Shown: positions 1 to 28,758 of the stretch, in pieces
Numbering within the stretch: position 1 is the stretch's first letter
Layout: each line of letters opens with the position of its first letter
Assembly (NCBI GenBank): GCA_023053545.1
Contig: JAKZAN010000004.1
Location: 744,001 to 808,000, forward strand
Direction of reading: 5' to 3'
DNA: 64,000 bases
Source of the DNA: Lepidurus packardi
Lineage: Eukaryota; Arthropoda; Branchiopoda; Notostraca; Triopsidae
Notes under the pieces: model-generated
What the model was told of the DNA's origin: nothing
Seen by the model: only the letters and a program-made list of their open reading frames with translations
Database searches by the model: none
Program-made: the position numbers and the translations under genes

Positions 1-191
1 ATATTAGCTAATATATTTAAAGCGCCTAATTGGAAATTTTGAAATTTTTTTCATTATTCACTGGAGTTCGTCACATTCACGGCTACGACCTGTGGGCATG
101 AAACCTCCTTTCCTACGGGGGGCATGACCCCAAAAATGTGTTTGGGTAACACGACGAAGCATACGCCATTTTCTGTGGTTCTACTTCTGTG

Positions 192-1723: not shown

Positions 1724-3523
1724 GTACTAACGAATTGTCACTCTGATAACCTGTACAGCCTTAGTACTTCGTCATTTCTCGCATAAGCTGATAGGTATTT
1801 TTATCTAATTTATAGTTACGTTTATAAGGGCAAAGTGTCCACTTTCTGTCATCCTAACAAGTGGATGGGGTGGCACCCTCCATACAACCAACACTCAAAT
1901 TTGAGAAGCAAATAGGAGGAAATTCACTTGAGCGTCATCGATTCTCATTTCCTTGCTTGTAATACATATTTCAGGAAATATATGCATCGCTTTATTACCG
2001 CGACATTCGCGAAGTCAAAATCAATTGTCATTCGTAATAAAATACTTTTATTTAAAAACAACTTAGAAAGGAATAATTGAATAGAAAAATTTACTTTAGA
2101 TGTTTAGACTTTACCTTAGATGTGGCCCAAGAAATTTGGAATATCTTAGTACTCATTTTTATTTTAATAAGAAAAAAAATTTGATTTCTAAGCAAAGGCT
2201 AAACCATCCATTTGATATGAGCATAAGGATACAATGGGTTGCTCTATAAAGAAAAAGAACAGAGTTCTTTTCAGAAACTTCATGCAGAAGGCCAAAACGG
2301 AATTTTCAGCCTTGTTTTAATTATTAGTTGCGTTCGTTGCTATGATTCCGATCCTACAAAACTTCTCGTCCAACCAAAAACCAACTATTGATTGCTATAT
2401 GGAAGCTATGTAATGCAAGTGACCAACCGTTTCACTTTCTGCTACTTCTACGCTTACTTAGACTCTCAACCCGATATCCCATATAAGCTCCCCGGTAATT
2501 TGCCCGGTAAGATGGGAGCCTGTTAGGCCGGGGACCCGGAGTAGGTTCCGATACTTTAAGACGCCAATCTGCTTTTCTATAGTGAGCAAAATTAAAATTA
2601 ACTGTAACCATTTTCTGAACATAAAGGTTAATTAGATCTATACTAAGGAAGTCGTTACCCAGTTGCCAAAATAACATTGGTCGAACTATTGTATTACTAT
2701 TACTATTAACTATATTTTACGACTTATATGCAAATTCGGTTATTAAGTAATAAAAAAAATTGTTTCAGACCATAGTGGAATGTTTCAGACTTTTCCTGTT
2801 CTTGTATTTAGTATACCATTTTTACCCATTTAACCCTTTCCAGAATGTTCTCACTTTGTCTGACTTAACGATGTTTACCAACGTTGACTTAGAGCTATGT
2901 TTGCCAACGTTGCTTTAGCGTAGTACCCTTTGCTACTACAAGAAGTGGCTCTGGACTAATAGTCGACATCACTCGTATCGTTCAAATTCTACCAGTCATG
3001 CCATTTGTGCATTCAGCTTAATCTTGTGAACAAATACAGTTCATTTGATCGGAAAATTCTACTGTCTTGGAATCCTTTTTAAGCACAAAATTGTCGTTCC
3101 CCGCTTCGTAATTTTCAAAAATCCTTCTATGAAAGAAATACTAATGGTGGCTTTTTAAGACATTTGTAGACGTAACTTTATGGGAGCGTGAATAAACCGC
3201 GGAATTGTAATTCGAGTTAAAATTTCGCTTTTTTAACTAAAGTTATATTTTTACAGCAATTAAGTTGTAGTCACGATTCATGAGTCATCCGCTTTTGATT
3301 CTGACAATAGATGGCGATATCCGTTCGTTTAAATGGATTCACTAGATTCAATTTAAAGACACCACATGACTACCGGAAGGAAATTAACTTAATTTTAAGT
3401 TGCTTGGTCAGAAAACTTAAGTCAGAAAACTGGCCTAACTCTGGACATAATAAGAAATCAGAGATTATGTTTTGAGTTTCAAGTATGTATTAATAAATAA
3501 ATCTCCTTTCTGTGTTCTCCAAC
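1724..3523. other. Intergenic DNA between receptor and cuticle genes (copy A)
   Basis: No gene recognised. 1724-2610 is shared with copy B (19556-20450). About 2611-3503 is absent from copy B, probably deleted there. The extra part includes two near-repeats of a GTTTRCCAACGTTG motif at about 2872-2920. The short frames here are not supported by splice or family evidence. Confidence 0.6.
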
Positions 3524-4078
3524 TTAATAACTGGCGGGGGTCGGGGAGAAAGCGGGGGTACGGTAGGCGACGGGAGCAGCATAGGTTGGGGCGGTATAAG
3601 CTGAGGCAGAGTAGGTTGGGGGACGGACGGTGGCCCACACGGCGGCGACTTCCGGGGTGTATGTGGAGGCGACGGGCAAGTGGTCACCCTTGGGCTGGAA
3701 TCCGTTCTGGTCAGCAACCCAGGCCAACGTATTACGCTGGCCTTCTGGGGTAACGACAAAAGAAGATCCGCGGTGGGTGTTGCCCATTTCCGTGCCGATA
3801 ATCTTCCGGACTTCAGATTCTTCAAGGTTCGTGCCGTCAGATCCGGCTCGGCTATAATAAAGTCAATACTTGAAGTTAATGAATCAAAAGGATGATTGCA
3901 CTGGCTTACCTCCAGTAGCTGCTTGCATCTGGGTTGCGGACATCGCTTTGGCTAACGATGGTGATTTCCGGCTGCCTAGCATAGCCGGTAGAGTAAGGTA
4001 AGGCGAGGCAAGTTGTTTGTAAGGCAAGCTAGCGGCGGAGGCAGCGGGCAACAAAGCAGCGAGGAAAAAGAATTTCAC
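3524..4078 (-). pseudogene. RR-family cuticle protein gene, frameshifted in exon 1 (copy A)
   Basis: Structural chitin-binding cuticle protein. Exon 1 (3910-4078) begins with a signal peptide (MKFFFLAALLPAASAAS). Exon 2 (3524-3851) holds the chitin_bind_4 region: SDGTNLEESEVRKIIG, then GTEMGNTHRGSSF, then a VADQNGFQPKGDHLP end matching the Rebers-Riddiford consensus, and an Ala/Pro/Thr/Tyr-rich tail. The intron is 58 bp. The frame that joins smoothly to exon 2 ends exon 1 with PDASSYW, but the signal peptide is in another frame, so exon 1 carries a frameshift near 4000-4030. That region has a duplicated GTAAG unit, so slippage is likely. It is either a pseudogene or an assembly error. Confidence 0.85.
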
Positions 4079-4107
4079 TGTTGGTTTGGAGGTTTCAGAA
4101 AATGAGA

Positions 4108-4148
4108 GTGAACTGATTAAACTGAACCACAGTTATTGCTTTTATACG
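4108..4148 (-). promoter_or_regulatory. Core promoter of cuticle protein gene
   Basis: On the minus strand a TATAAAA box (about 4140-4146) is followed about 30 bp later by a TCAGTT arthropod initiator (4111-4116). The ATG lies about 35 bp further on at 4078. Spacing fits a standard pol II core promoter. A LINE fragment begins about 95 bp upstream of the TATA box. Confidence 0.72.
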
Positions 4149-4237
4149 TGGGTCAACTGGAACATAATGGAATTTTAATTTTTATAGTTAATTTTTAATA
4201 AATTTTTTACTAATAATTTTTTACTAACTTTTTTAAT

Positions 4238-4673
4238 AATTTTTTATAAATAATTTTTGAGTTATTGGACATTGTTTTGGACATCTTTTGCTTGAAGATA
4301 ATCCCTAGAATCTGCAAATCTTGTTTAGTTTTCAATTTTGGCATGGCCCAGTCTTCTCTCCCCTGCCATGCTCCAAAAAGGGAAAAAAAGGGGGGAGGGA
4401 TTTAACCAGACTATCTGGATTATGTGTCTGGGATCTGCTTAATGACAGCTTACTGGAAAGAAAGGGGGGAGATGGGAAATACACACACACACACAAAGGC
4501 AAATAATATATAGTTTATACACTAATATGTCGCTTACCCTTTAGTTAATGCAATGGAAGCGATCGCGGTCGTCAGGAAAATGTGCTTTTATGCGTTTTTC
4601 CGTTTTTAATAATCACGCCAAAAAAAAAAAAAACTACACGCTATCACGGGATTCTAACTCTCGTGATGATTTA
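4238..4673 (-). mobile_element. Internally deleted copy of the 5S-targeting LINE (copy A)
   Basis: The minus strand from 4673 to about 4378 matches the 5' UTR of the LINE at about 9470-9770, including the hairpin-like ATCACG...CGTGAT segment. From about 4370 down to about 4240 it matches the reverse transcriptase region at about 13338-13460. About 3.6 kb between these segments is missing. The extreme 5' end of the LINE and the 5S half that remain in copy B are lost here. Immediately beyond is the conserved 5S upstream block (4682-4713). Confidence 0.85.
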
Positions 4674-4681
4674 TGTGCTGC

Positions 4682-4713
4682 GGTAACGTCTGAGCAGGCC
4701 GAAGGAACGCTAC
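4682..4713 (-). promoter_or_regulatory. Conserved 5S upstream block (minus strand, orphan)
   Basis: Reverse complement of the GACTCGTAGCGTTCCTTCGG / CCTGCTCAG block that precedes each recognisable 5S gene here. In copy A no 5S sequence remains next to it; the LINE fragment abuts it directly. Confidence 0.7.
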
Positions 4714-6930
4714 GAGTCCGCGCCCGAACCGTCTTGCTTGTGACCGAATTGGATTTTCAAGAGCTTAAGTTCCAGATATACAGAACATGCCGTGTGTTCC
4801 CGTTACAAGGATTTTGGCCTTTTGTCCGTTCCGGTATGATCACTAGTTGTTTTGTCCCGTCAATGATAAGCCTTTAATTAACTAACTGCGAAAACTACTC
4901 CTGAAATGCACTCGTTTTTATATTTGCTAAAGTTTTTACAACCTAAAAAAGTTCTGAAAAAGTTATTTTATTTTTTATATTTGCGCGGTTAATATTTTTG
5001 TTTAGAAGATAAAGTTTGTGGTTTGTTTCGGGTGTGCAAACGTCATCTGGCGGGGTCGCTTTTGATTGGATGCTTTTGAACGCTTTTGATGGCGCTAAAG
5101 TAGAACAGCAAAACTTCCCATAGAGTCTCCCCTACCTCACCTTTTACATCTCAGTGTTCTCCAAAAGTAAATACAACAGGTACTGTTTATTGTGATCACT
5201 GGTTATTATAATCAACCCAATATATACAATCAAATTATACAATCAAATTTAAAAGAATTATACAATCAAAAAGAATTATGCAATCAAAGAATTATACAAT
5301 CAAATTTGAAAGGATCAATTAAAAATGATAAAATTTATGGCTTTTTAATCGGCTATTAGTATCACACTTTCGGATATTAAAATCGATTTTGAAAGAATCT
5401 TCACATGTATAGCACAGTAACGAAACTACAGTAGTCATCGCTACATGGGCTTTGCAAATTTACCAATGACATTGCTTTAAGCCATTTTGACCAATGCTGT
5501 CATTTCTAGCCGATTACTACGCGTAGGGGGAAATTCCTTGTAAAATCCTCAATCAATTAAATGAGTAGGTTATTAAATTGAATGACCTGCTGCTTTTAAT
5601 TGATGGGGGAATTTAAAATGGGTTTAGCTTTGAGAGTAGGAGCAGTATAGTAGTCATCGTTGTCATCGCATAGTAGTGTAGTAGTAGCAGTAGTTAGTAG
5701 GAGTAGTAATAGTAGTAGTAGGAGGAGGAGGAGAAGTAATCGTGTAGACTTCAAAGGCGCACTGTTAGTTGTGTTTTAGACATTTGGTTAAATAAAATGG
5801 CGACGAACAAAAGAGCTGTCTTAAATGAAAAAGAGAAGTTGCGGTTCACTGTAACTTATGACATCAGTTCAAATCATAACAAAGCTACCTATATGTACAG
5901 ATGTAGGTACATATTTCCGATTTTCGGTTATTAGAATCTCCGATGAATATAATCAATATTCACTTGACAAGTGATATGATCACAATAAGTGGCACAATAA
6001 GCGGTATATACCTGTACATAATTAAATAATATGTATATTAATGACAGCAACAAACGGTAAAAACTTGAATCCATATTGTATGCAATTTGTCTTAAAACCA
6101 ACCTCGATAAACAACGAAACCTAGTTTGACCTAAGCAAAGTTGGCTAGATTTCTTACTCTTGACCCAACTTTACCTAAACATGGTTTCTACTCTTGAATC
6201 CAACATAACATAAACTAACGTAACTATATATTTGGCACTAATCTGCGACTGTTGAAAAACTAGAACGCGTATCGGTTGAAACGTAAGAAATCCGTCTTTC
6301 GGCAATAAATACATTAATCTTTTTTTTATTCCCAATCTCTTAGTTACCTTAAGACAATTTCGGTCCTTCCGTTCAGTAACTTTAAGTGTTCCCTATTTTG
6401 GGTGAGAATTTTAGTAAACCTTGAATACAATTTTTAAAGTAGAATAAAAATATTTTAAAAGTCCTGCACTTCAATGAAGAATCAAGTTTACTTTTTCAAA
6501 ATTGATTAGGAATAATTTTGACTCGATCAGAGGACAACTACCTTTTGTTTTGGTTGTTTTAATTTCCCAGATAGGGAACCCCGTAAGTGAGATTTGATCG
6601 ATACTTGTTGCGATGCTACCCTCCACTGGAGTTAGATTGCATGTAACGAGAAGTTGCTTAAGAGTCTTCAGCTGACCTTGGACAAGACAAGAGACGGTAA
6701 ACACTCAGATAAGAAAAACCGGAAAAACAAGTCAGAATTGAAGGTCCAAGATTTCGCGAACGGGGAATTCTGTTCGCCCCTTCACGCGTATTCGCACATG
6801 TACACTTAACGATGCAGGGAAAAGGCAAACACGGAAAAAGATCACAACACGAAAAGGTATAACCGTATATACTGATATACATCTGCAAGTCAATGTCCAT
6901 GCCACGCACTCGTTACGCCACTCCTATTTC
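4714..6930. other. Non-coding upstream region of peroxidase fragment (copy A)
   Basis: No gene supported. It holds a short tandem array of ATACAATCAAA-like units (about 5222-5312) and an AGT/AGG microsatellite (about 5640-5735). It is conserved with 21215-23490 and more weakly with 28990-30490. Short antisense frames at 6471-6909 recur in the copies but change with indels, so they are not taken as coding. Confidence 0.6.
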
Positions 6931-6937
6931 CCAAGCT

Positions 6938-6972
6938 TATTTAAACCTCGTTGACCGCTGTAGCTCAGCTAG
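6938..6972 (+). promoter_or_regulatory. Core promoter of peroxidase 5' fragment (copy A)
   Basis: TATTTAAA at 6938-6945, with a TCAGCT initiator-like site 27 bp downstream (6965-6970). The same arrangement occurs before both other peroxidase copies. The stretch from the TATA-like box to the GCGTTTGTGCGACG transcribed leader is nearly invariant in all three. Confidence 0.65.
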
Positions 6973-7011
6973 TTTAAGCGTTTGTGCGACGACGGTAACA
7001 TTTTAAACGCA

Positions 7012-7369
7012 ATGGTAATTGAAGGAATTAGGAATTTGATTAATCAATCAATCCAGTATCTGTAAACTAATTAGTTCATTTTAAAACATGTAAAATATTA
7101 GGGAACGTTTGGAGCTACGCACTTACGATGGTTAAGCGCGTGCGTTATTTGGATGGCTGCCAATGCACAGATCTCATTACCGGCTAGCGATCAGTCGTTG
7201 CCAACCACTACTTGCCGTTCAAGCAGAGGTCTAGATGGGATTTGTCGCACGTTATCTGAATGCGCAAGCCTAATTGGGGATGAAATAGTATCCGAAAGTG
7301 TAATTTGCCACCTAGAAGGTGGAGCCTCAGGCATTTGCTGCGCAGATTCACCGGTGAACGCCACAACCA
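7012..7369 (+). pseudogene. Truncated peroxidase gene: exons 1-2 only (copy A)
   Basis: Exon 1 contributes just the ATG (7012-7014). After an 87-bp intron, exon 2 (7102-7369) encodes a signal peptide (GTFGATHLRWLSACVIWMAANA) and a six-cysteine CLIP-like module ending GICCAD. The sequence continues into intron 2, which contains a MITE, and then breaks at about 7735 into histone DNA. All catalytic exons are missing. It could only make a short secreted Cys-rich peptide, so it is treated as a duplication fragment. Confidence 0.85.
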
Positions 7370-7385
7370 GTAAGTACCGTCTCTT

Positions 7386-7640
7386 TAAAGCTCCCGTATA
7401 CCTTAGCTTATTGATGCGAAAGAGTCACAGATGACACTGATGTTTCTTAGTGTTTTCTAAAAGCCTTGCATAGAAATGTAAAACAAGAAACAAATAGCTA
7501 ATTGCCGCCAGATTTTTATCGCTTGTTTTGCTTCTGGAAAGTACAACTTGTCACCACAGTTTGCCGTAACAGCACAACGTCCTAAATCAAGACATCGAAC
7601 TTTCGGAGCAAGATTTATTAAAGAAATTTCATGGAACTTT
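7386..7640 (+). mobile_element. GGCTCCC-type MITE fragment in peroxidase intron 2 (copy A)
   Basis: Starts with AAAGCTCCCGTATACCTTAG, the terminal repeat also found at 23946, 30932, 42704 and both ends of 59652-60296. The interior matches the reverse complement of about 60040-60280. The far end is lost before the duplication breakpoint. Confidence 0.75.
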
Positions 7641-7767
7641 ATTTATAGTTGATCTTATACATTTAATTCAATATATTTAATTATATTTAATACATTTAAT
7701 TCAAGTGTCAGCTATTAACTATATACTATTTTCTGTTGGGGGAACAGAAAATGTTTTGACAACTGTT

Positions 7768-7959
7768 GTTGACAGCTTTGTCAATGACATTTTTGAGCGC
7801 ATTGCGGACGAAGCTTCCCCTTTGGCCCACAACAACAAACGCTCGACCATCACCAGTCGGGAAATCCAGACGGCCGGTCTGCTCCTACCGGGTGAGTTGG
7901 CTAAGCATGCCGTCAGTGAAGGCACTAAAGCCGTCACCAAGGACACCAGCTCCAAGTAA
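7768..7959 (+). pseudogene. H2B: Histone H2B 3' fragment
   Basis: Encodes the C-terminal half of H2B starting at [11 protein letters not shown], continuing [14 protein letters not shown] and [18 protein letters not shown] to TSSK and a stop. One residue of the usual AVRLLLPGEL stretch is missing, and conserved positions differ (LAHNNK for LAHYNK, TKDTSSK for TKYTSSK). The N-terminal half is absent; the join to peroxidase intron sequence is about 7735-7768. A histone 3' stem-loop follows 28 bp after the stop, so the piece comes from a replication-dependent histone gene. Confidence 0.93.
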
Positions 7960-7987
7960 GAGATTTCGCCTGGAAGAAAAACCCAAC

Positions 7988-8003
7988 GGCCCTTTTCAGG
8001 GCC
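7988..8003 (+). terminator. Histone mRNA 3' stem-loop
   Basis: GGCCCTTTTCAGGGCC, a perfect 6-bp stem and TTTC-type loop with ACCA-like flanks. This is the canonical signal that replaces polyadenylation in replication-dependent histone mRNAs. Confidence 0.95.
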
Positions 8004-9030: not shown

Positions 9031-9149
9031 GCCAACGGCCATACCACACAGAATGTACCCAGACTCGTCAGCTCCTGGAAGTCAAGCTGTGTCGGGCCCG
9101 GTCAGTACTTGGATGGGTGACCGCCTGGGAACACCGGGTGCTGTTGGCT
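9031..9149 (+). rRNA. 5S rRNA: 5S ribosomal RNA gene
   Basis: A 119-nt full-length 5S gene: GCCAACGGCCATACCAC at the 5' end, an intact internal control region including GTCGGGCCCGG and GGATGGGTGACCGCC, and GGTGCTGTTGGCT at the 3' end, which pairs with the 5' end. A run of five Ts follows, a pol III terminator. It is the only uninterrupted 5S copy in the window and lies in a patch of histone and 5S remnants. Confidence 0.93.
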
Positions 9150-9371: not shown

Positions 9372-9426
9372 GCCAACGGCCATACCACGCAGAATGTACC
9401 CAGACTCGTCAGCTCCTGGAAGTCAA
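9372..9426 (+). pseudogene. 5S rRNA: 5S rRNA gene 5' part (nt 1-55), split by LINE
   Basis: Nearly identical to nt 1-55 of the 5S gene at 9031. It stops abruptly after CTCCTGGAAGTCAA, and the LINE begins at 9427. The remainder of this gene resumes at 15679 with the same 14 bases, showing that one 5S gene was split by insertion. Confidence 0.92.
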
Positions 9427-9996
9427 TTCCGATCGCTCCCGAGCAAAAGTCATTTTCTAGTTCCTAGTTCATCACGAGAGTCAGAATCCCGTGATAGCGT
9501 GTATCTTTTTTTTTACTTGATTATTAAAAAGGGAAAACGCATTCAAGCACATTTTCCTTACGACCGCGACCGCTTCCATTGCATTACTTAAAGGGTAAGC
9601 GACGTATTAGTGTATAATTTTTTTTTTCTATATATAGATATTATTTGTCTTGTTGTGTGAGTGTGCGTATTTCCCATTTTCCCCCTTTCTTCCCAGCAAG
9701 CTGTCATTAAGCAGATCCCAAACACATAATCCAGATAGTCTGGTTAAATTCCTTCCCCTTTTGTTTCCCCTTTCTCTTTCAGTTTCGAACTCACACTGGA
9801 GGTATTGAACACGTGGCTATACCCTGTTTGTTCTTTTCTTCCTGTTTGAACTCACACAGGTGAAGTCGGGTATTCTCATATTCGTGCCTTTTTCCTTGTT
9901 TGTTTTCAAAACAGATACCCCGCCTTGTTTTTCTGTTCAACCTATATTTCAAATTTAATTTTGATACTTTTCCTTCTACTTTCTATATAAAAAAAA

Positions 9997-11113
9997 ATGG
10001 ATAACACGGGAATTGGTCCAAAGTTTGTTGAAACATGCGGAGGCGAGATCCAACTAACGCACAACAACGGAACGCTGTACTACTTGCCAGTAGGCACAAC
10101 CGAGAGTAAGCACAGAATACTTTTACTATCCAAACTTCCATTCGAAATAGAAGAGAAGCATATCGTAGAAACACTGAAAGAATATGGAAAAGTTCTAAAA
10201 TTTCCCAGAGAATTCTTCACTGGAAGCAATATCTTCAAAGTAGCTAGGTAGAGAGCCACCGTACAGTTTTTAATGACTAAAGACGTGCCTCCTTTCATAA
10301 ACATCTTGGGCACATCTGTACAAGTTCAGTACCCTGGACAGAAAGAGCAGTGTAATTACTGCAAAACTCTGGGCCATAACCGTAATGGATGCCCTAAGCT
10401 AGCAACCAAGCAAAAACGATTCGAGGAGGATTTTCCACCTTTAGTCGTTAACAGTGCTAACGCAGATTGTCAAACAGTGGGAGAAGGGTATAGTACATTG
10501 GCAACTCTTGAACCCCTTGGCAAAGTAGTAGAAGAGAATGAAGGGTCGAAGGACCAGCCAACAGGGGTAGACACAGATTTGAATACTCTGGAGTTAGAAC
10601 CTCCGGTAACACAAGACATGGAGGTGCAGGAGAGCACAACCAAAGTACCGGATTCACAAGCGGTTTTGATAAGAGAAGAGGAGGAGGCCGAGGAGCCAGC
10701 GCTAGAAGTGCAGAATCGTTTCCAGTTACTAGGAACGCTAGGAGAAGAAGAAGACGTGAGACTCGGGGAAAGCGAAGGGTTTTTGATAGCAGAGCAGCAA
10801 AATGCAAACGAAAGCGAGGAAATCACAAGCCTGACGACACTAAGCCGGACACCCAAAGCAACTGACCAACAAATTAGGGAAAAATCAGGACTCAACCTTC
10901 GTTTAAAAAAAAATGCGTACAGATGAATATGAAAATTTAAAAACCCCAGTGAAATCGATGGCCAGTCAAGAAGTTGAAAAGGAAGGAAATGAAGAAATAC
11001 AGAAAGAACCAATTTTACCACTAAAACCATCAACAAGTACAAAAAAGAAGAAAGTACCAGCTACCAAAGCACAGAGAACTGCTGCGACGAGGGCAGGCAG
11101 AACCCCACGCTAA
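9997..11113 (+). pseudogene. LINE ORF1 (nucleic-acid-binding protein), two lesions
   Basis: Starts MDNTGIGPKF. An RRM-like stretch (ILLLSKLPFEIEEKHIVETL) is followed by a zinc knuckle CNYCKTLGHNRNGCP (C-x2-C-x4-H-x4-C) and an acidic, Glu-rich tail ending in a basic Lys/Arg segment. A single in-frame TAG (10249-10251) interrupts the RRM-knuckle link. An A-run near 10906-10913 shifts the frame for the last 65 codons. The ORF ends at TAA 11111-11113, one base before the ORF2 ATG. In the family, ORF1 binds the element RNA to form the retrotransposition particle. Confidence 0.85.
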
Positions 11114-11114
11114 T

Positions 11115-14100
11115 ATGGAAGCTTTAAACGAAGAAATTAAAATATGTAGTTTAAATGTCAGAGGACTGAAACAATCGATGAAACAAAAACTGATGACAAG
11201 CTTTATAGAACAGTATGAGCTAGATGTAGTGTGCCTTCAGGAACTCAATACGGATTTCAACCCAAATCCTGATAGGTTCAATCTTATTTGTGATGTGGGA
11301 CCTGGAAAACCAGGTATAGGTATTCTCTATAGAAAGGAATTTGAATTAAAAAACTTTAAAACCTCGACGACAGGTAGAATCTTACAAGCAGTCTTTCAAA
11401 ACTTTATCGTATTAAATGTCTATGGCCACCCAGGGAATCACCCAGCAGACGAGAGAAATGAGCTTTTTAACATATTTTTACCAATTTACCTTAAAAATGA
11501 AAACATACACACAGTCTTAGTGGGCGATTTTAACGTAGTAATAGACGGAAAAGACGCTACTACCCCGCGCATGAATGATTTCCTAAAACGTGCAATAAAC
11601 GGTTTTGAGCTAGTAGACGCATATCGCCTTCAATACGCGCTAACGACCGACTTTACATTCATCCATTCCAAAGGAGGAGCCAGACTTGATAGGATTTATT
11701 TGGGCAAAGGTTTAAAAAATAACTTTCATAAAATAGAACACACAACTTTCGTAGGATCGGACCATAAAGCGGTCATAGTAACACTCAAAGGCACTCTTGA
11801 AGATATAACAAGAGAAGAAATAAGACGAAGACCCAATAGATGGCACCTAAGCCAAGATATATTAAACGACCCGCGCTTCGTCATACACGTTAAGGAACTA
11901 GCTCAAGAGTTTTCTACCCGATTGGATCCAAAGAAACCACATAAGGTACTGGAATAATTTTAAGAAAAACATTCAGTTATTTGCCAGGAGCCTCCAGCAA
12001 GAAATAAAAATTGAGCAGAATACACTAAGATCCTTTTACAAGAGCTGTTTCGATGAGGCAAGCGAGAACGTCAGTGCCAATGCAGGGAGTTGGGGGGATT
12101 TTGTATACTATAGACAGAAATTGAGAGAAATGGAAATACACCAAATACAAGATGCATTATACAAGAGCCGAATAGATAGTATATAAAAGGGTGAACAAGC
12201 GAGTCTAACCCACGTACTGGAAGAAAAAAGGAAAGCTAACCAGAGCATCTTTAAAAGTTTACGAAGAACAGATGGGGAGCTGATTCACAAGGAAGAGGAC
12301 ATGAGAGCTTTATTCGAAAACCATTTCCAAACTATCTACACACCGGAAGAAGAAACAGAAGAATCGGAAGTTTTTGGAACAACTTTTTTAGAGACGGCAA
12401 TATCCAATGATGACCTAGAAAATTTAAATCAAACTATAACGTGCAGAGAAGTTAGAACAGCAATTAATTTATTACCTCGGAATAAATCCCCAGGACCGGA
12501 CGGGCTTAGTGTCGAATTCTATACAAGATTTGCAGAGATTTTATCACCTCTACTGGTACTTTTAGCCAATGAAGTCTTCCAGGGGGGGCTCAAAGAGGGA
12601 GACAATGACAGTCTACTTAAACTTTTAGCGAAGGGAGGAGATAAAAAAAACCATTCAAAACTGGAGACCAATCGCACTACTAAACTCAGACTATAGAATT
12701 TTAGCAAAGTTGCTCGCTGAGCGAATTAAGCCATATCTAACGCAGGTAATCGTTCCTCATCAAACTGGGGGAGTACCAGGGAGGAACATTACGGACAACT
12801 TAACTAAAATTAGGAATGCAATAGAGTTTGCAACAGAAAGGTACGGACAATATCCAGAAAACTTTAGTAATTATAAAATCGATTCAATTGCGAGATTAGG
12901 CGTCATCGCACTAGATCTCGAGAAAGCATACGATAGAGTAAACATAAGCTATTTATTTAAAATCATGAAACTTTACGGCTTCCCAGACTACATCATTAAT
13001 AGCATACAAGGACTCTACGAGCATGCGAGATGCAAAATCTTAATCAATAAAATATCCACCAAGCCGGTAAACTTGAATAGAGGAGTAAGACAAGGGTGTC
13101 CTTTATCTCTTTATTTATTTAGTATATATATAAACCCTTTATTAACCAAATTAGCACATGAATTGCATGGGTTTGATATCATAGGGGAAAAACAGACAGT
13201 AACGGGTTACGTGGATGATCTAACAATACTAACGGCTAAGGAGACGGATTTTAAACTTATAGAGAAAACCCTAGATGCCTTTTGTCACACATCAGGTGCA
13301 AAAATTAACTGGGAAAAATCAGGCATTATCCCTTTTGGGGCATGGCAGGGGAGAGAAGACTGGGCCATACCAAAATTGAAAACCAAGCAAGATTTGCAGA
13401 TTCTAGGGATTACCTTCAAGCAAAACATGTCCGAAACAATTTCCAATAACTCAAAAATTATAGTACAATATGCAACTAAGAAATTCTACGTCTGGAAAAC
13501 AAGATTTTTATCCATTCATCAAAAAGTTAGTTACGTCAACCTTTATATTTTACCACTTTTTTATCACCTGGCAAGAATTTTACCAATTACAAAGCCCTGC
13601 ATACGATTGATGAAACAAAAAGTAGGGACCTTTGTATGGGGCGGTAGGTTGGAGAGATTAGCCTATGAAGAAATTTTAAACGCACGCGCAGACGGGGGAC
13701 TGGGCCTCGTGGACCTAGAGAGCCAGTGTAAAAGCTTCCAGTTACAGAAGCTGTGGAATGACTCACAATCAACCGACAGAGCTACGAAAAGAATTGTAAC
13801 GTATTTTACGGCTATACCATGGCGTAAAATATACCAAACACCAAACGGGCCCAAAGCGGAAGTCATACCCATGTCATTAAAAGACGCGGTCACAACTATG
13901 CTTGGTCTAGGACATTTTTTAAAACGCGACCAAGCTTTCCCAAGAAAAGAAGTGTATCAATTTTTAACGGCAAAAAAATTACGAACACCCAAGATTGTAG
14001 CTAAATACGCAGACAATGATTACCCAATGATATGGAAAAACCTTACCAGTAACGTTTTAACTCCGGAAGTTAAAAGTCATGTATTTTATCAGGTGCACGA

Positions 14101-14482
14101 CATTCACCCTACCGCGGATAGATTAAAAAGATGTAGACAATCAGTGACGGACGTATGCGACCAATGCCAGTGCAAAGAGGATATTTATCACACATTTTTG
14201 TGCAAAAAGCTTCAAACAGCCAACGATTGGGCAAAGACTGTCCTCACTCGGGTATTACCAAATACACCCATGTCGAGAGCATGCATGCTCGATTTCCAGG
14301 CGACCGGAAAGGAGAACCACCAAGTGGGTGTGTGGTTTATAGCCGAGTACACATACCACCTGTGGAAAGCCAGAAAAAAAGGTGATGGTGCAGTAGCCGA
14401 AATAAGAGCTAGAATGAAACATCGTTTAGAAATGCAAAGGAAGATACAACCAGCGCTAGCAACACTTGGCAACATATTTTAG
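11115..14482 (+). pseudogene. LINE ORF2 (endonuclease and reverse transcriptase), few lesions
   Basis: The N-terminal APE endonuclease shows SLNVRGL, VVCLQELN, VLVGDFNVVIDG and a terminal SDHKAVIV motif. The RT part shows KSPGPDGLSVEFY, VPGRNITDN, LDLEKAYDR (motif A), RGVRQGCPLS (motif B) and GYVDDLTILT (catalytic motif C, near 13204-13230). A Cys/His cluster CDQCQCKEDIYHTFLC lies near the C-terminus. A frameshift at about 11940, a stop at about 12183 and a frameshift at about 12600-12640 interrupt it. The last 590 codons are open. YVDD replaces the FADD common in L1. Confidence 0.9.
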
Positions 14483-14533
14483 TATAAAAAACACGAAATT
14501 TGACTAAAAAGAAACGTAGAACCTCTTGTAAAC

Positions 14534-14564
<31 letters not shown>

Positions 14565-14759
14565 AAAGATATATATATATATCCCCCTTCACCGCATCAA
14601 AAAGAAAATTGAAGAAAGAAAACCTAAATAAATAAAAATAAAATAAAAAATAAGAAAGAAAATAAAAAGAAAGAAAGAAAATAAGAAATAAAAAAACAAA
14701 AATATTTAGAAACGTAGTTTCCAAAGGAACTGTCTCAGTGCTAATAAGTATTATGCTTA

Positions 14760-14792
<33 letters not shown>

Positions 14793-15678
14793 GACAGTTA
14801 GAAACTTAGGCTCCCGAGAAACTGTTTGAATCCCGAGAGAATATTTTGAATACCCAAGAAACTATATCCCCATTCTTCTCAGTAAAAAGAAAGTAGAACA
14901 CCAAACTTTGTTGAATCCTATTTACTAACTAAAGAAAATTATCCTCAAAAAAAAAAAAAAAAAAAAAAATATTAGTAACGTAGGATCCAAATAAACTGAA
15001 TGATCCAAATGATCCAAATCTGATTGCTAATAAGTTGCTTGCTTACCAAAAAAAGAAAAAAAAAAAAAAAGAAAAAAAAAAACCCGACAGTTAGAAACAT
15101 ATGCTCCCGAGAAACTGTTTGAATCCCGACAGGATATTTTGAATACCCAAGAAACTATATCCCCATTCTCCTCATTAAAAAGAAAGTAGAACCCCAACTT
15201 TGTTAAATCCTATTTGATAACTAAAGAAAACCTATCCCATACTCAAAAAAAATAATAATAATAATATTTAGAAACGTAGTTTCCCAAGAAACTGATTACC
15301 AATAAGTTGTTTGCTTAGTAATAATAATAATAATAAAAAAAATAAGCATAAGCTCCCGAGAAACTGTTTGAATCCCAACAGGTTTACAGGAATACCCAAG
15401 AAACTATATCCAACTTCTCCCCATCAAAAAGATAGTAGAACACCCAATTTGGTCAACTCCTATTTGCTAACTAACTAACTAAACAACTAAATTATCTAGA
15501 AACGTAGTTTCCCAATAAACTGTCTGATAACCAGTAAGTTGTTTGCTTACCAAAAAAAAAAAAAAAAAAAAAAAAAATTTCCCCCCCACCTTTGTCCATA
15601 TATTTGAATCCTAGAACAAGTAGAATCCTAGAACAAATGAAAAACACCAAAAATGTAAAAATGTTAAAAAAAAAAAAA
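14483..15678 (+). repeat. LINE 3' UTR with tandem modules and poly(A)
   Basis: Four degenerate tandem modules, each with a GAAACGTAGTTTCC-like start at about 14709, 14973, 15268 and 15497. They are separated by A-runs of about 10-30 nt and by a GAAACTATATCC-containing segment. Module length is about 225-295 bp. The final A-run abuts the 5S target site. Another fragment of this 3' UTR is at 16019-16361. Confidence 0.75.
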
Positions 15679-15762
15679 CTCCTGGAAGTCAACCTGTGTC
15701 GGGCCCGATCAGTACGTCAGTACGGATGGGTGACCGCCTGGGAACACCGGGTGCTGTTGGCT
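15679..15762 (+). pseudogene. 5S rRNA: 5S rRNA gene 3' part (nt 42-119), after LINE
   Basis: Starts with the 14-bp target duplication CTCCTGGAAGTCAA and runs to GGTGCTGTTGGCT plus a T-run. It keeps the internal control region but has a small internal duplication (AGTACGTCAGTACGGATGGG for AGTACTTGGATGGG). It pairs with 9372-9426 as the two halves of one interrupted gene. Confidence 0.92.
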
Positions 15763-15941: not shown

Positions 15942-16018
15942 GCGAACGGCCATACCACACCACACGGCATACCACTGTATGCGGCCATACCACGGCCATA
16001 CCATACGGCCATACCACT
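15942..16018 (+). pseudogene. 5S rRNA: Shuffled 5' pieces of a third 5S gene
   Basis: Begins GCGAACGGCCATACCACAC, i.e. 5S nt 1-19 with changes. Then come four further short copies of the CGGCCATACCA core in the same orientation, before the LINE 3' UTR begins at about 16019. This looks like filler DNA made at the 5' junction of a truncated LINE insertion. Confidence 0.7.
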
Positions 16019-16330
16019 GTATCTTTGTCCTTATATTTGACAAAAGTAGAATCCTAGAACAAATGATAAACCCAAAAATGTAACACTAACCTGAAATCTA
16101 ATAATTTTTTAAGAAAAACAATCTAATGGACGCATCCATAGTAAAAGCAGAAGACGTGGAGTAATTTGCGTCTTACAGAAGGCTCAAGAAACTGTCTGAT
16201 TACCAATAAGTTGTTTGATTACCCAAGCATCTGTTCCCCCCCAACCTTGTCCCCTTGTATTTAAATCCCCTTGCCTTTATATTTGCTAATGTAGAACCCT
16301 GGAATAAGTGAAGACCATCAGAGTGTAACA

Positions 16331-16361
<31 letters not shown>
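16019..16361 (+). mobile_element. 5'-truncated 5S-targeting LINE (3' UTR only)
   Basis: Matches the end of the LINE 3' UTR (TCCTAGAACAAATGA, AATGTAACACTA) and ends in an A-run of about 28 nt directly abutting 5S nt 42 at 16362. It has no coding part. It contains a direct repeat of the terminal module (about 16020-16085 and 16235-16335). Confidence 0.8.
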
Positions 16362-16364
<3 letters not shown>

Positions 16365-16439
16365 CTTTAAGTCAAGTTGTATCGGGCTCGGTCAGTACTT
16401 GGATGGGTGACCGCCTGGGAACATCGGGTGCTGTTGGCT
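16362..16439 (+). pseudogene. 5S rRNA: 5S rRNA gene 3' part (nt 42-119), after truncated LINE
   Basis: Begins CTCCTTTAAGTCAAGTTG right after the LINE A-tail, then runs intact to GGTGCTGTTGGCT and a T-run. It is truncated at exactly the same 5S nucleotide as 15679, which shows repeated insertion at one site. Confidence 0.9.
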
Positions 16440-17579: not shown

Positions 17580-18011
17580 CATGAATCTCTTTTATATGTA
17601 GGTCATTTTTATAGGTTTAGTACTGGTCAGGGAGAGTTTAGGGGTATGTCAAGAGCAAGTGAACCAATTGGTGTGCTGTATCTTTTTCAAAATATTAGAA
17701 TCTTCGTAAATTATCCCCTTCGTAAAGTACTCAAAAGAATAAAGGGAGTACAACCCTCTTTGTATTTTAGGTACAGTTTTATATTTTACCGTTTGACGCT
17801 TTCGTAAGTCTTTCAGGTGGGTGAAAGAGAAGTTTGCAATCGCATAGCAATCTCAAACGTATACTAGCGGTAAGCTTTATATAGATGCTGTATTGTTATT
17901 GGTGAAGAAGTTATAAGAAAAGTATATTGGCTAATATATTTAAAGCGCCTAAGTGGAAATTTTGAAATTTTTTCATTATTCACTCGAGTTCGTAACATTC
18001 ACGGCTACGAC

Positions 18012-19555
18012 TTAACTGCTGTGGTAAGGTGAGTACGCAATAATTATCAGATAGTAAGTGATAACGGTGCCAAAAACCTGCAAAATAAAAATCAAACGTT
18101 CAAACCAAACTTCAATAAAAAATGCTCTTACGGATGGAATCATTTTCCTGTTTATAGTGAATAAACCACAGGCGCTGATTTCCACATTCTTGGCTGTTAT
18201 GCGACTATGGAAAGACTGAAGTTGGACGTCCAAAGAACCGTGTTCATCTTTAAAGTCCCCATCGCAAAATGGTATTCCCCCGACTACCTCCTTACACCTA
18301 TTCGCCTATGGAAAAAATGTTAAATGCTATATAGTAAATTTTTATATTTCTATATAATTAAGATTACTTTATATGGTATATAGATAAAGTAAAAAAAATG
18401 TGCTTACAGCTGTGGGGATTAAGTCCGCAGCCCATATCACCAACAAAAGTTCAGCTATACGCTGAACAAGCAGCACCATTACGTTTATCAACGAAATGGA
18501 TTCGGCAGTATTTTGGGAATTAATCAGAAGCGCCAGTTTTGAAACGTAATACAAGTGTCCCATGATGTGCAAGAGATGGCACACAAGATAGAGCAGCAAG
18601 GCCAGGCCGATATAGGCGTTAACATCGCTGACTGCCTTTTCAAGCAGGACGGAAGTAGCTTGTAGCTTCCTAAGCCGATTTCGTAATTTCTGCGACTGGC
18701 CAACGTCATGCGTCAGTGTGTTCTCCAAAATGTCAACTTGGTAAGGAGAAGGAAGGTCAGGGTACAAGTCATGGCGTATTTTGTCTGCAAAGCCGTGGTA
18801 GCAGCTGGCCAGTGTACGGGAAAACATGAAAAGCTGGATCGGCACGACCCATGTTGAAATGTAGTGGAACACAAAAAGAAATCCGTGGCAGATGTTCCCA
18901 ATAAGCGGAATTCCGGTACCCAGTTTAAAGATGGGACTTTCCAAGGCTTTGGATTCCTCATAGGTAAGATAAATCCACATGAGGTTAGATATTATCTAAA
19001 TAACTTAGTTAAGTTTAAGTCTGTATTTTAACTGGCCTTTCAAAATATCATTCGTACCGATAGCGACTCCAGAAATAGGACGAGAATCGTCAAGGGCCAT
19101 AAGTTGGAGCTCGTGAAGTTTGAGCACAAATATCCTTGTATCTCGTTAATAGTATTAAGAGCCGATTCTAAAGCTGACATGCTGGCAAAACCAATTCGAG
19201 GAATAATAACTGTGTAGCAAATCATGCTGCTAGCAAGCAATACGCTAATTAATGCACCAGCACTGGATCTTAGCACCGCGCCAATCATGTAGTCGATGGT
19301 CAAGGTGATGTGTAGGGCCATGGCCAGTATCCAGAGAACGGTAGTAATATGAAGTCTGGCGAATCGAATGCGAAGGAATCCGGAACTTACTGACGTGACG
19401 AGAACAGGTAGACATCCCATCCATTTTAGGAAAGAGACGATTTTCAAAATAGCTAATACAGAACTAGAGTAATACTCTTTCGAAGTGGACCCAGTGGGTT
19501 CAACTTTAGTCTTGCTTGGTAAAACCCACATGCTGTTGGTTTGACTCATGGCCAA
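18012..19555 (-). CDS. Gustatory-receptor-like seven-transmembrane protein (copy B)
   Basis: Duplicate of the receptor at 192-1723. Coding exons 19058-19555, 18408-18956, 18132-18305 and 18012-18077, all phase 0, about 428 aa, no disabling change seen. Exon 1 differs from copy A at only a handful of residues, while exon 2 differs at roughly 15 percent of positions, so divergence is uneven along the gene. The C-terminus ends YYLIIIAYSPYHSS. Both copies look functional, so they may be a recent pair of receptor genes. Specificity cannot be judged from sequence. Confidence 0.82.
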
Positions 19556-20468
19556 GTACTAACGAATTGTCACTCTGATAACCTGTACAGCCTTAGTACT
19601 TCGTCATTTCTCGCATAAGCTGATAGGTATTTTTATCTAATTTATAGGTACGTTTATAAGGGCAAAGTGTCCACTTTCTGTCATCCTAACAAGGGGATGG
19701 GGTGGCACCCTCCATACAACCAACACTCAAATTTGAGAAGCAAATAGGAGGAAATTCACTTGAGCGTCATCGATTCTCATTTCCTTGCTTGTAATACATA
19801 TTTCAGGAAATATATGCATCGCTTTATTACCGCGACATTCGCGAAGTCAAAATCAATTGTCATTCGTAATAAAATAGTTTTATTTAAAAACAACTTAAAA
19901 AGGAATAATTGAATATAAAAATTTACTTTAGATGTTTAGACTTTACCTTAGATGTGGCCCAAGAAATTTGGAATATCTTAGTACTCATTTTTATTTTAAT
20001 AAGAAAAAAAAATTTGATTTCTAAGCAAAGGCTAAACCATCCATTTGATATGAGCATAAGGATACAATGGGTTGCTCTATAAAGGAAAGGAACAGAGTTC
20101 TTTTCAGAAACTTCATGCAGAAGGCCAAAACGGAATTTTCAGCTTTGTTTTAATTATTAGTTGCGTTCGTTGCTATGATTCCGATCCTACAAAACTTCTC
20201 GTCCAACCAAAAACCAACTATTGATTGCTATATGGAAGCTATGTAATGCAAGTGACCAACCGTTTCACTTTCTGCTACTTCTACGCTTACTTCGACTCTC
20301 AACCCGATATCCCATATAAGTTCCCCGGTAATTTGCCCGGTGAGATGGGAGCCTGTTAGGCCGGGGACCCGGAGTAGGTTCCGATACTTTAAGACGCCAA
20401 TCTGCTTTTCTATAGTGAGCAAAATTAAAATTAACTGTAACCATTTTCTCCTTTCTGTGTTCTCCAAC
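19556..20468. other. Intergenic DNA between receptor and cuticle genes (copy B)
   Basis: Same as 1724-2610 of copy A with minor changes. The 0.9 kb that follows in copy A is absent. No gene recognised. The long antisense frame running from cuticle sequence into this region is a chance frame. Confidence 0.6.
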
Positions 20469-20889
20469 TTAATAACTGGCGGGGGTCGGGGAGAAAGCGG
20501 GGGTACGGTAGGCGACGGGAGCAGCATAGGTTGGGGCGGTATAAGCTGAGGCAGAGTAGGTTGGGGGACGGACGGTGGCCCACACGGCGGCGACTTCCGG
20601 GGTGTATGTGGGGGCGACGGGCAAGTGGTCACCCTTGGGCTGGAATCCGTTCTGGTCAGCAACCCAGGCCAACGTATTACGCTGGCCTTCTGGGGTAACG
20701 ACAAAAGAAGATCCGCGGTGGGTGTTGCCCATTTCCGTGCCGATAATCTTCCGGACTTCAGATTCTTCAAGGGTCGTGCCGTCAGATCCGGCTCGGCTAT
20801 AATAAAGTCAATACTTGAAGTTAATGAATCAAAAGGATGATTGCACTGGCTTACCTCCAGTAGCTGCTTGCATCTGGGTTGCGGACATC
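20469..20889 (-). pseudogene. RR-family cuticle protein gene lacking most of exon 1 (copy B)
   Basis: Exon 2 (20469-20796) is open and encodes the same chitin-binding region as copy A, with few substitutions (PVAPTYTPE for PVASTYTPE). Upstream, the short intron and only the last 30 or so bases of exon 1 survive. The signal peptide, promoter and ATG are gone, replaced by LINE 5' UTR sequence from about 20889. It cannot produce a secreted cuticle protein. Confidence 0.85.
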
Positions 20890-21075
20890 ACAAAACACAC
20901 TCACGGACATCACAAAAACACAAACAAAAAGGCAAATATATATATATATGCTTTTATACGTTTTTCCCTTTTTAATTAATCACGCCAAAAAAAAAAACTA
21001 CACGCTATCACGGGATTCTAACTCTCGTGATGAATTATGAACTAGAAAATGACTTTTGCTCGGGAACGATCGGAA
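20889..21075 (-). mobile_element. 5' end of the 5S-targeting LINE (copy B)
   Basis: Read on the minus strand it begins TTCCGATCGTTCCCGAGCAA, matching the first bases of the LINE at 9427, and continues into the 5' UTR (ATCACGAGAG...CCCGTGAT, then A/T-rich). It is truncated after about 185 bp. It is the extreme 5' end of the element, preserved with its 5S flank. Confidence 0.87.
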
Positions 21076-21130
21076 TTGACTTGAAGGAGCTGACGAGTCT
21101 GGGTACATTCTGTGTGGTATGGCCGTTGGC
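21076..21130 (-). pseudogene. 5S rRNA: 5S rRNA gene 5' part (nt 1-55), split by LINE
   Basis: Minus-strand copy of 5S nt 1-55, ending CTCCTTCAAGTCAA exactly where the LINE starts. This is the same boundary as at 9426/9427. The conserved upstream block follows at 21174-21213, 43 bp from the gene start. Confidence 0.9.
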
Positions 21131-21173
21131 GTAATCAGTCCTTTTCACACTCAATAAATAGGGCCGCATGTTG

Positions 21174-21213
21174 TTGCGGTAACGTCTGAGCAGGCCGAAG
21201 GAACGCTACGAGT
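21174..21213 (-). promoter_or_regulatory. Conserved 5S upstream block (minus strand)
   Basis: Reverse complement of the GACTCGTAGCGTTCCTTCGG / CCTGCTCAGACGTTACCGCA block, positioned upstream of the split 5S gene at 21076-21130 with the usual spacing. Confidence 0.65.
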
Positions 21214-23490
21214 CCGCGCCCGAACCGTCTTGCTTGTGACCGAATTGGATTTTCAAGAGCTTAAGTTCCAGATATACAGAACATGCCGTGTGTTCCCGTT
21301 ACAAGGATTTTGGCCTTTTGTCCGTTCCGGTATGATCACTAGTTGTTTTGTCCCGTCCATGATAAGCCTTTAATTAACTAACTGCGAAAACTACTCCTGA
21401 AATGCACTCGTTTTTATATTTGGTAAAGTTTTTACAACCTAAGAAAGTTCTGAAAAAGTTATTTTATTTTTTATATTTGCGCGGTTAATATTTTTGTTTA
21501 GAAGATAAAGTTTGTGGTTTGTTTTGGGTGTGCAAACGTCATCTGGCGGGGTCGCTTTTGATTGGACGCTTTTGAACGCTTTTGATGGCGCTAAAGTAGA
21601 ACAGTAAAACTTCCCATAGAGTCTCCTCTACCTCACCTTTTACATCTCAGTGTTCTCCAAAAGTAAATACAACAGGTACTGTTTATTGTGATCACTTGTT
21701 ATTATAATCAACCCAATACATACAATCAAATTATACAATCAAATTTAAAAGAATTATACAATCAAAAAGAATTATGCAATCAAAGAATTATACAATCAAA
21801 TTTGAAAGGATCAATTAAAAATGATAAAATTTATGGCATTTTAATCGGCTATTAGTATCACACTTTCGGATATTAAAATCGATTTTGAAAGAATCTTCAC
21901 ATGTATAACACAGTAACGAAACTACAGTAGTCATCGCTACATGGGCTTTGCAAATTTACCAATGACATTACTTTTAAGCCATTTTGACCAATGCTGTCAT
22001 TTCTAGCCGATTACTACGCGTAGGGGGGAATTCCTTGTAAAATCCTCAATCAATTAAATGAGTAGGTTATTAAATTGAATGACCTGCTGCTTTTAATTGA
22101 TGGGGGAATTTAAAATGGGTTTCGCTTTGAGAGTAGGAGTATAGTAGTCATCGTTGTCATCCCATAGTAGTGTAGTAGTAGCAGTAGTTAGTAGTAGCAG
22201 TAGTTAGTAGTAGCAGTAGTTAGTAGGAGTAGTAATAGTAGTAGTAGTGGTAGTGGTAGTAATAGTAGTAGTAGGAGGAGGAGGAGAAGTAATCGCGTAG
22301 ACTTCAAAGGCGCACTGTTAGTTGTGTTTTAGACATTTGGTTAAATAAAATGGCGACGAACAAAAGAGCTGTCTTAAATGAAAAAGGGAAGTTGCGGTTC
22401 ACTGTAACTTATGACATCAGATCAAATCATAACAAAGCTACCTATATGTATAGATGTAGGTACATATTTCCGATTTTCAGTTATTAGAATCTCCGATGAA
22501 TATAATCAATATTCACTTGACAAGTGATATGATCACAATAAGTGGCACAATAAGCGGTATATACCTGTACATAATTAAATAATATGTAGGCTACATTAAT
22601 GACAGCAACAAACGGTAAAAACTTGAATCCATATTGTATTCAATTTTGTCTTAGAACCAACCTCGCGGAACAACGAAACCTAGTTTGACCTAAGCAAAGT
22701 TGGCTAGATTTCTTACTCTTGACCCAACTTAACCTAAACATGGTTTCTACTCTTGAATGCAACATAACATAAACTAACGTAACTATATATTTGGCACTAA
22801 TCTGCGACTGTTGAAAAACTAGAACGCGTATCGGCTGAAACGTAAGAAATCCGTCTTTCGGCAATAAATACATTAATCTTTTTTTTATTCCCAATCTCTT
22901 AGTTACCTTAAGACAATTTCGGTCCTTCCGTTCAGTAACTTTAAGTGTTCCCTATTTTGGGTGAGAATTTTAGTAAACCTTGAATACAATTTTTAAAGTA
23001 GAATAAAAATATTTTAAAAGTCCTGTACTTCAATGAAGAATCAAGTTTACTTTGTCAAAATTGATTAGGAATACTTTTGACTCGATCAGAGGACAACTAC
23101 CTTTTGTTTTGGTTGTTTTAATTTCCCAGATAGGGAACCCCGTACGTGAGATTTGATCGATACTTGTTGCGATGCTACCCTCCACTGGAGTTAGATTGCA
23201 TGTAACGAGAATTTGCTTAAGAGTCTTCAGCTGACCTTGGACAAGACAAGAGCTGGTAAACACTCAGATAAGAAAAACCGGAAAAACAAGTCAGAATTGA
23301 AGGTCCAAGATTTCGCGAACGGGGAATTCTGTTCACCGCTTCACGCGTATTCGCACATGTACACTTAACGATGCAGGGAAAAGGCAAACACGGAAAACGA
23401 TCACAACACGAAAAGGTATAACCGTATATACTGATATACATCTGCAAGTCAATGTCCATGCCACGCACTCGTTACGCCACTCCTATTTCC
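21214..23490. other. Non-coding upstream region of peroxidase 1
   Basis: Copy B equivalent of 4714-6930. It includes the ATACAATCAAA tandem units (about 21722-21800) and an expanded AGT microsatellite (about 22136-22290). No gene supported. Confidence 0.6.
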
Positions 23491-23496
23491 CAAGCT

Positions 23497-23530
23497 TATT
23501 TAAACCTCGTTGACCGCTGTAGCTCAGCTA
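23497..23530 (+). promoter_or_regulatory. Core promoter of peroxidase 1
   Basis: TATTTAAA at 23497-23504 and TCAGCT at 23524-23529, identical to copy A and nearly identical to the promoter at 30496. Confidence 0.65.
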
Positions 23531-23570
23531 GTTTAAGCGTTTGTGCGACGACGGTAACATTTTAAACGCA

Positions 23571-27379: not shown

Positions 27380-27474
27380 AAATGATTTACCTCTGAAAGT
27401 ATTTAAAAGTGGAATGGTTTTTTAAATCACTTTGTAAGTCAGATAAATAATAAATTTTAAATTAAAAAAGAAAT

Positions 27475-27551
27475 CTCCCGGAAGTCAAACTTCGTTGGAC
27501 CCGGTCAGTACTTGGATGGGTGACCGCCTGTGAACACGGGTGCTATTGGCT
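27475..27551 (+). pseudogene. 5S rRNA: 5S rRNA gene 3' part (nt 42-119) fused to peroxidase 1 3' end
   Basis: Begins CTCCCGGAAGTCAA, again at 5S nt 42, right after an A-rich stretch (AATTAAAAAAGAAAT) that follows the peroxidase 1 polyadenylation signals. It runs to GTGCTATTGGCT and a T-run with a few substitutions and one deletion. No LINE sequence is recognisable immediately upstream. Confidence 0.88.
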
Positions 27552-28502: not shown

Positions 28503-28731
28503 ATGCCTCCGAAAACAAGCGGTAAAACAGCCAAGAAGGCGGGCAAGGCCGAGAAGAACATATCCAAGACCGACAAGAAGAAGAAGCGCCGCAGGAAGGA
28601 GAGCTATGCTATTTACATTTACAAAGTGCTCAAACAAGTCCACCCTGACACTGGCGTTTCCAGCAAAGCCATGAGTATCATGAACAACTTTGTCAATGAC
28701 ATCTGTCACCAAGTACACCAGCTCAAAGTAA
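28503..28731 (+). pseudogene. H2B: Histone H2B with internal deletion
   Basis: The N-terminal tail and first helices are intact ([60 protein letters not shown]). The sequence then jumps to the codons for VTKYTSSK in another frame, removing about 60 codons of the histone fold. The native TAA is at 28729-28731. A histone stem-loop follows 27 bp later. It is broken but retains recognisable flanks. Confidence 0.92.
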
Positions 28732-28758
28732 GAGCTTTCGCCTGGAAGAAAACCCAAC

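Follow-up and report, generated by a model that had tools for sequence, protein, structure and literature searches.

The locus

The 64 kb stretch analysed here (the window; positions 744,001 to 808,000 of contig JAKZAN010000004.1, assembly GCA_023053545.1) comes from the branchiopod Lepidurus packardi and contains a long interspersed nuclear element (LINE), referred to as copy 1, that lies inside a 5S ribosomal RNA (rRNA) gene a short distance downstream of an intact 5S gene. The element is probably a non-LTR (long terminal repeat) retrotransposon of the L1/Tx1 group, represented by a dead full-length copy, whose family aims at 5S rRNA genes. Coordinates are those of the window, and all junction counts cover the 5S pieces and LINE remnants inside it. 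The split gene and its surroundings consist of the following features.

9031–9149, plus strand: intact 5S rRNA gene (RF00001, 103.5 bits; the sole 5S sequence of the window at the Rfam gathering score)
9372–9426, plus strand: left half of the split 5S gene, nucleotides (nt) 1–55 (blastn identity 98.2% over 55 nt), ending in the target duplication at 9413–9426
9427–15678, plus strand: LINE copy 1, full length with broken open reading frames (ORFs), 6,252 bp including a 13-A tail at 15666–15678
15679–15762, plus strand: right half of the split 5S gene, nt 42–119 (blastn identity 89.3%), beginning with the target duplication at 15679–15692 and carrying a 6-bp internal insertion

The target duplication is a perfect 14 bp, corresponds to 5S nt 42–55 and reads CTCCTGGAAGTCAA. 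Inspection of the sequence shows that its length is exactly 14 bp, as the adjacent bases exclude a shift on both sides. Across the 64 kb there are three exact copies of the 14-mer, one belonging to the intact gene and one flanking each end of the element, compared with a maximum of 0 in 100 shuffles. When the flanks of copy 1 are joined and the duplication is counted once, a 119-nt 5S gene is restored that can be aligned with the intact gene over its whole length, with four substitutions (nt 18, 56, 71 and 79) and one 6-bp insertion. A preliminary description of this DNA had placed a LINE within a single 5S gene, with nt 1–55 on its left and an A-tail followed by nt 42–119 on its right, which is correct within one base; the perfect 14-bp duplication it reported is borne out by the exact 14-mer at both ends.

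Recurrence of the junction nucleotides

With the intact gene (9031–9149) as query and the window as subject, blastn found seven 5S pieces: besides the intact gene itself, there are four right and two left fragments. Apart from copy 1, the following 5S pieces and LINE remnants are present.

20946–21075, minus strand: LINE nt 1–126, with its 5' end directly joined to 5S nt 55 (87.7–88.5% to copy 1; same first base)
21076–21130, minus strand: left half of another split 5S gene, nt 1–55 (blastn identity 96.4% to the intact gene), with the target variant CTCCTTCAAGTCAA
4250–4669, minus strand: LINE remnant in which part of the 5' untranslated region (UTR; element nt 43–347) is joined to a piece of reverse transcriptase (RT; nt 3900–4035)
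15942–15960, plus strand: 5S nt 1–19 with one mismatch, lying before the 3' end of the second LINE copy
16023–16361, plus strand: 3' end of a second, 5' truncated LINE copy, with a 29-A tail at 16333–16361
16362–16439, plus strand: 5S nt 42–119 directly after the 29-A tail (blastn identity 92.3%)
27475–27551, plus strand: 5S nt 42–119 after a short A-rich stretch (blastn identity 88.5%), with the 3' flank of a peroxidase gene upstream
28815–28874, plus strand: 5S nt 60–119 (blastn), joined to the DNA that flanks an H2B-like piece on its 3' side

Three of the four right fragments start at nt 42, two of the three left ends stop at nt 55, and all three LINE pieces that adjoin 5S sequence share its direction. 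The site preference that had been proposed, to be judged by counting flanks at nt 42 and nt 55, finds support within the window, where the count was made: the same 5' and 3' junction nucleotides recur in other remnants.

The second 3' end is related to copy 1 over 16023–16083, which blastn matches to 15590–15658 of copy 1 (69 bp) at 84%, and a 42-bp block matching the tail of copy 1 reaches a score that was equalled in 0 of 500 shuffles of two-base blocks. Upstream of it, at 15942–16017, 5S nt 1–19 are followed by scrambled repeats of the first 5S nucleotides (CGGCCATACCA units), which resemble filler at a truncated insertion. The piece at 28705–28874, an H2B-like 3' end with a stem-loop fused to 5S nt 60–119, represents a 5S break at a position other than the LINE site.

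For the 27475 junction, an origin as a retrocopy of peroxidase mRNA was considered and rejected, as the exon-like pieces match a sister copy and a duplication of 91.9% identity spans 24460–27467; a deletion that reached from the flank of the peroxidase gene into the A-tail of a LINE is possible, though unproven. Matches of the A-rich 3' UTR at 42976, 46214, 50800 and 55633 were set aside as low-complexity DNA and not LINE copies (50800 was inspected). A weak tblastn match was also recorded at 23360–23289 (E 0.005).

Organisation of copy 1

Copy 1 carries two ORFs between its UTRs, with the following parts.

9997–11113, plus strand: remains of ORF1 (stop at 10249–10251; frame change at an A-run, 10905–10913)
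10351–10392, plus strand: CCHC knuckle of ORF1, C-x2-C-x4-H-x4-C (found by eye)
11115–11786, plus strand: apurinic-type endonuclease domain of ORF2 (Exo_endo_phos PF03372, 1.1e-13; PDB LINE-1 entries 2.5e-11 to 5.7e-10)
12301–12693, plus strand: first part of the ORF2 RT, in a different frame, with the SPGPDG block (translated comparison)
12710–14482, plus strand: main part of the ORF2 RT, with YVDD (RVT_1 PF00078, 2.5e-24)
14156–14203, plus strand: C-terminal CCHC of ORF2 (found by eye; zf-RVT 1.8e-4, 22.5 bits, below the cut-off of 27.5)
14483–15665, plus strand: 3' UTR, with a 293-bp tandem repeat (1.8 copies) and internal A-runs

ORF1 gave a weak Pfam match to RRM_7 (E 0.073, below the cut-off), and the first RT part taken alone gave no Pfam match above the cut-off. 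ORF2 is damaged by two frame changes and one stop, so that with the lesions of ORF1 there are stops and frameshifts in both frames and copy 1 is dead. The earlier designation as a full-length ORF1/ORF2 element therefore stands as regards length and the presence of both ORFs, but neither of these is open. Predicted structures of the endonuclease and the RT had a mean predicted local distance difference test score (pLDDT) of about 35 each and were set aside.

Classification

An apurinic (APE) type endonuclease and an RT in ORF2, an A-tail and a target duplication are all present, as in APE-type non-LTR retrotransposons. The top two PDB matches of the endonuclease are 2v0s and 2v0r, named LR1 and LTX (1.4e-13 and 2.3e-11), which we take to be L1 with grafted loops; the LINE-1 entries of the domain list follow, and the best cellular nuclease reaches 1e-6. 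TRAS1 and R1 endonuclease entries exist in the PDB, and none so named is among the 49 PDB matches listed for this domain.

Against the comparators, the endonuclease scored 57 bits with human L1 and 27 and 24 bits with the two LINEs of L031, a record with two LINE ORFs among bacterial records that was found by a two-row alignment with human L1 (the same search of public contigs also returned one mammalian-type L1, L030, and a further bacterial record, L032, which was left out of the comparison). The alignment with human L1 shows the L1 catalytic positions (N, E, Y, D-x-N, D, SDH) in place. The endonuclease is thus nearer to L1 than to other APE-type LINEs, which supports placement in the L1/Tx1 group. 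A CCHC knuckle in ORF1 and a C-terminal CCHC in ORF2 are features of the Tx1 clade; in copy 1, candidates for both were seen by eye, and the zf-RVT score in ORF2 lies below its cut-off. Identity between the RT and that of L1 is approximately 23–25%. In an RT tree of six rows with long branches, the path is shorter to L1 (3.3) than to R2 (4.0) and the RT is split from both L031 LINEs, but the tree settles no order among the RT, L1 and R2.

The R2 group, whose members have a single ORF and a restriction-like endonuclease and lack an APE domain, was rejected since the present element has an APE domain and two ORFs.

Searches of public contigs with the RT and the endonuclease confirmed no relative in viral contigs, and two patterns, one describing the 5' end of the LINE and the other a branchiopod-like 5S, gave 0 matches in public contigs. 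Neither the contig searches nor the PDB comparison of the RT brought up a sequence labelled as a Tx1-clade member. A 16-mer around the 3' junction was present in 29 viral contigs. Compared with the 5S gene, 28 of the 29 showed short matches around the 14-mer, and these were taken as chance. One viral contig (L007, 10552–10588) has 37 nt that are 84% like 5S nt 36–71 (E 0.001), probably also by chance.

Proposed mechanism of insertion

The two junctions of copy 1, its duplication, tail and orientation, and the recurrence of the junction nucleotides in other remnants are seen directly, and this anatomy fits target-primed reverse transcription. In such a scheme, the apurinic-type endonuclease would nick the bottom strand of the 5S gene between the complements of nt 41 and 42, and reverse transcription of the element RNA, starting in its A-tail, would be primed by the freed 3' end. 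The top strand would then be cut 14 nt away, after nt 55, and fill-in would leave the 14-bp duplication of nt 42–55 on each side. We infer the order of nicking, the role of the endonuclease as chooser of the site and the genome-wide specificity of the family.

The A-tail joins 5S nt 42 directly at 15678/15679 and at 16361/16362, and has no complementarity to the primer end (the complement from nt 42 on); the site is therefore probably chosen by protein rather than by pairing of the tail. The position of the cut also bears on what would be left of the gene. The 5S control regions of fly and Pollicipes lie at 3–18, 37–44, 48–61 and 78–98, according to the accessible part of the account (PMC3215682). 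If these positions apply here, the right-hand 5S remnant likely retains the control blocks at nt 48–61 and 78–98 whole and loses nt 3–18.

Genomic surroundings

The 5S sequence of the window is similar to what we take to be that of Artemia. Histone-like pieces lie beside the 5S sequences, namely an H2A-like ORF and truncated H2B-like pieces (Pfam Histone; the H2B assignment was made by eye), and three matches to the histone stem-loop score 33.3, 32.7 and 25.3 bits, all below the gathering score of 34. Linkage of histone genes with 5S genes has been described for the crustaceans Artemia salina and Asellus aquaticus in the accessible text of PMC3215682, and the arrangement in the window corresponds to it.

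A Pfam search of the window also identified cuticle-protein genes (PF00379), haem peroxidase genes and one chemosensory receptor-like ORF (7tm_7, E 0.024, below the cut-off). The cuticle-protein genes indicate an arthropod host, and the linkage of histone and 5S sequences, together with the 5S sequence itself, would fit a crustacean, probably a branchiopod. Segmental duplications of up to 3 kb and approximately 92–99.5% identity occupy 1–8000, 18000–24300, 24460–27467 and 32446–35437, and carry the receptor-like, cuticle and peroxidase genes that surround the histone and 5S remnants. Remnants of the LINE 5' UTR lie directly upstream of two copies of a cuticle-protein gene (20472–21130 and 3527–4669, minus strand). 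In the 21-kb copy, the LINE start occupies the position of the first exon and upstream region of the other copy, as judged by eye, and might serve as a candidate promoter. Further along, at 37347–43631 on the minus strand, there are ankyrin-repeat and SAM-domain ORFs in the same direction, the SAM ORF being large, which resemble a Shank-type scaffold gene.

Weighing of the alternatives

Several observations weigh against a 5S-targeting family of the L1/Tx1 group. The evidence comes from a single small cluster, rich in segmental duplications, in which the junctions are few and some possibly derive from one insertion. On the left of the second 3' end, the 5S sequence runs to nt 19 and not to nt 55, the right fragment at 28815 begins at nt 60 and not at nt 42, and the remnant at 4250–4669 no longer adjoins 5S sequence. 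Upstream of the 27475 junction there is no recognisable LINE sequence, and a comparison with the LINE tail is at chance level (445 of 500 shuffles). The upstream spacers of the minus-strand 21-kb half and of the second 3' end are 98.3% alike and their target variants are one base apart, so that a single event may have given rise to both the 5' end on the minus strand and the 3' end at 16362, each being one half of it. As to the group, the best PDB match of the RT is one R2 entry (2e-21) and not L1, which follows at 8.6e-20 and weaker, with the other R2 entries at 7.8e-15 and weaker.

If the family does target 5S genes, the question arises whether it shares this habit by descent with Mutsu, the 5S-specific LINEs of zebrafish (PMC11202950, PMC3706591, as far as their accessible text goes). 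The element could be a close relative of Mutsu, its 5S targeting having come from a common ancestor or by horizontal transfer, which is a serious possibility but falls somewhat short of probable. The shared target gene, the two ORFs between UTRs and the comparable size (PMC11202950, accessible part) point in this direction, as does the L1-type endonuclease; the likeness is, however, one of target and layout, as described in the available part of the accounts. Alternatively, 5S targeting may have been gained independently of Mutsu within the L1/Tx1 group, a reading that also has a real chance of being right while remaining below an even one. A precedent for parallel targeting is provided by Keno and Utopia, which have reached the same U2 site in parallel according to the accessible text of PMC4640811.

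An untargeted LINE might instead have hit a 5S gene once, the other junctions being copies of that event made by segmental duplication. The abundance of such duplications in the window is in keeping with this, and the remnants at 4 kb and 21 kb are indeed a duplicate pair, 4250–4669 being the counterpart of 20946–21075 but lacking the initial 42 bp and any 5S part. The minus-strand 5' junction, however, compares with that of copy 1 at 94.8% over LINE nt 1–77 and 94.5% over 5S nt 1–55, whereas the 5S upstream spacer (−60 to −1) is only 60.6% alike (random 60-mers have a median of 47.8% and a 99th percentile of 58.8%); with its spacer diverged and its LINE start alike, the junction appears to stem from an independent insertion into a different 5S unit. 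In addition, its target copy carries a different variant, CTCCTTCAAGTCAA, and the 3' end at 16361 possesses a separate tail of 29 A and is followed by a spacer unlike that of copy 1 (49.3%). A single untargeted event is accordingly improbable. Weakest of all, and highly improbable, is a chimera in which the assembly joined a LINE to a 5S array. Tandem arrays are often misassembled, but the 14-bp duplication, the A-tail and the gene restored by the joined flanks are marks of a real insertion, and the same junction nucleotides recur elsewhere in the window.

A 5S-targeting family thus remains the preferred explanation. A fuller picture can be offered tentatively, and is rather unlikely to hold in all its parts: an arthropod lineage of the L1/Tx1 group that acquired 5S targeting independently may cut at nt 41/42 and 55/56 and leave a downstream remnant retaining the main internal promoter blocks, with successive insertions at these nucleotides having reshaped a mixed histone-5S cluster.

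A mobile element can survive in a genome by hitting multicopy genes only, as site-specific LINEs illustrate; such LINEs also supply tools for targeted insertion. If the present case is true, an arthropod 5S-targeting LINE would widen a trait that the accessible literature otherwise places in fish, and would enable a test, on a short conserved target, of whether 5S targeting is ancient or has been gained repeatedly.

Comparison with known systems

LINE-1 has the closest endonuclease among the solved chains and the comparators, an RT among the closest and an A-tail, but L1 is not 5S-specific and its RT is only distantly identical to that of copy 1.

Mutsu belongs to the Tx1 clade, and Mutsu subfamilies reportedly have their own 5S target sequences (Locati et al. 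2017). The elements are about 5.5 kb long with two ORFs in the available part of PMC11202950. They have in common with copy 1 the insertion inside the 5S gene and the two ORFs between UTRs; the host is a fish and not an arthropod, the length differs from the 6.25 kb found here, and the two are likened by target and layout, as given in the accessible text, and not by sequence.

LINEs have also been found in 5S arrays of an arthropod, the beetle Tribolium freemani (PMC11202950). These are Jockey-like, according to the class given by the authors, and interrupt satellite and 5S arrays, with no fixed nucleotide in the gene described in the accessible part of the paper. The Dada-5S elements of fish likewise lie inside 5S genes; they are, however, DNA transposons with a DDD/E transposase and 6-7-bp duplications and not LINEs (PMC8869645, accessible text).

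The preliminary description was aware of no published arthropod member with this target. In the open full-text literature, so far as it was accessible and with Repbase and most subscription papers outside its scope, no LINE of a crustacean or other arthropod was found that inserts at a fixed position within the 5S gene, and the statement stands to that extent; the published Jockey-like LINEs in the 5S arrays of Tribolium freemani qualify it as regards arthropod 5S arrays in general. The element in Lepidurus packardi is best read as a Mutsu-like 5S-targeting LINE in a new lineage.

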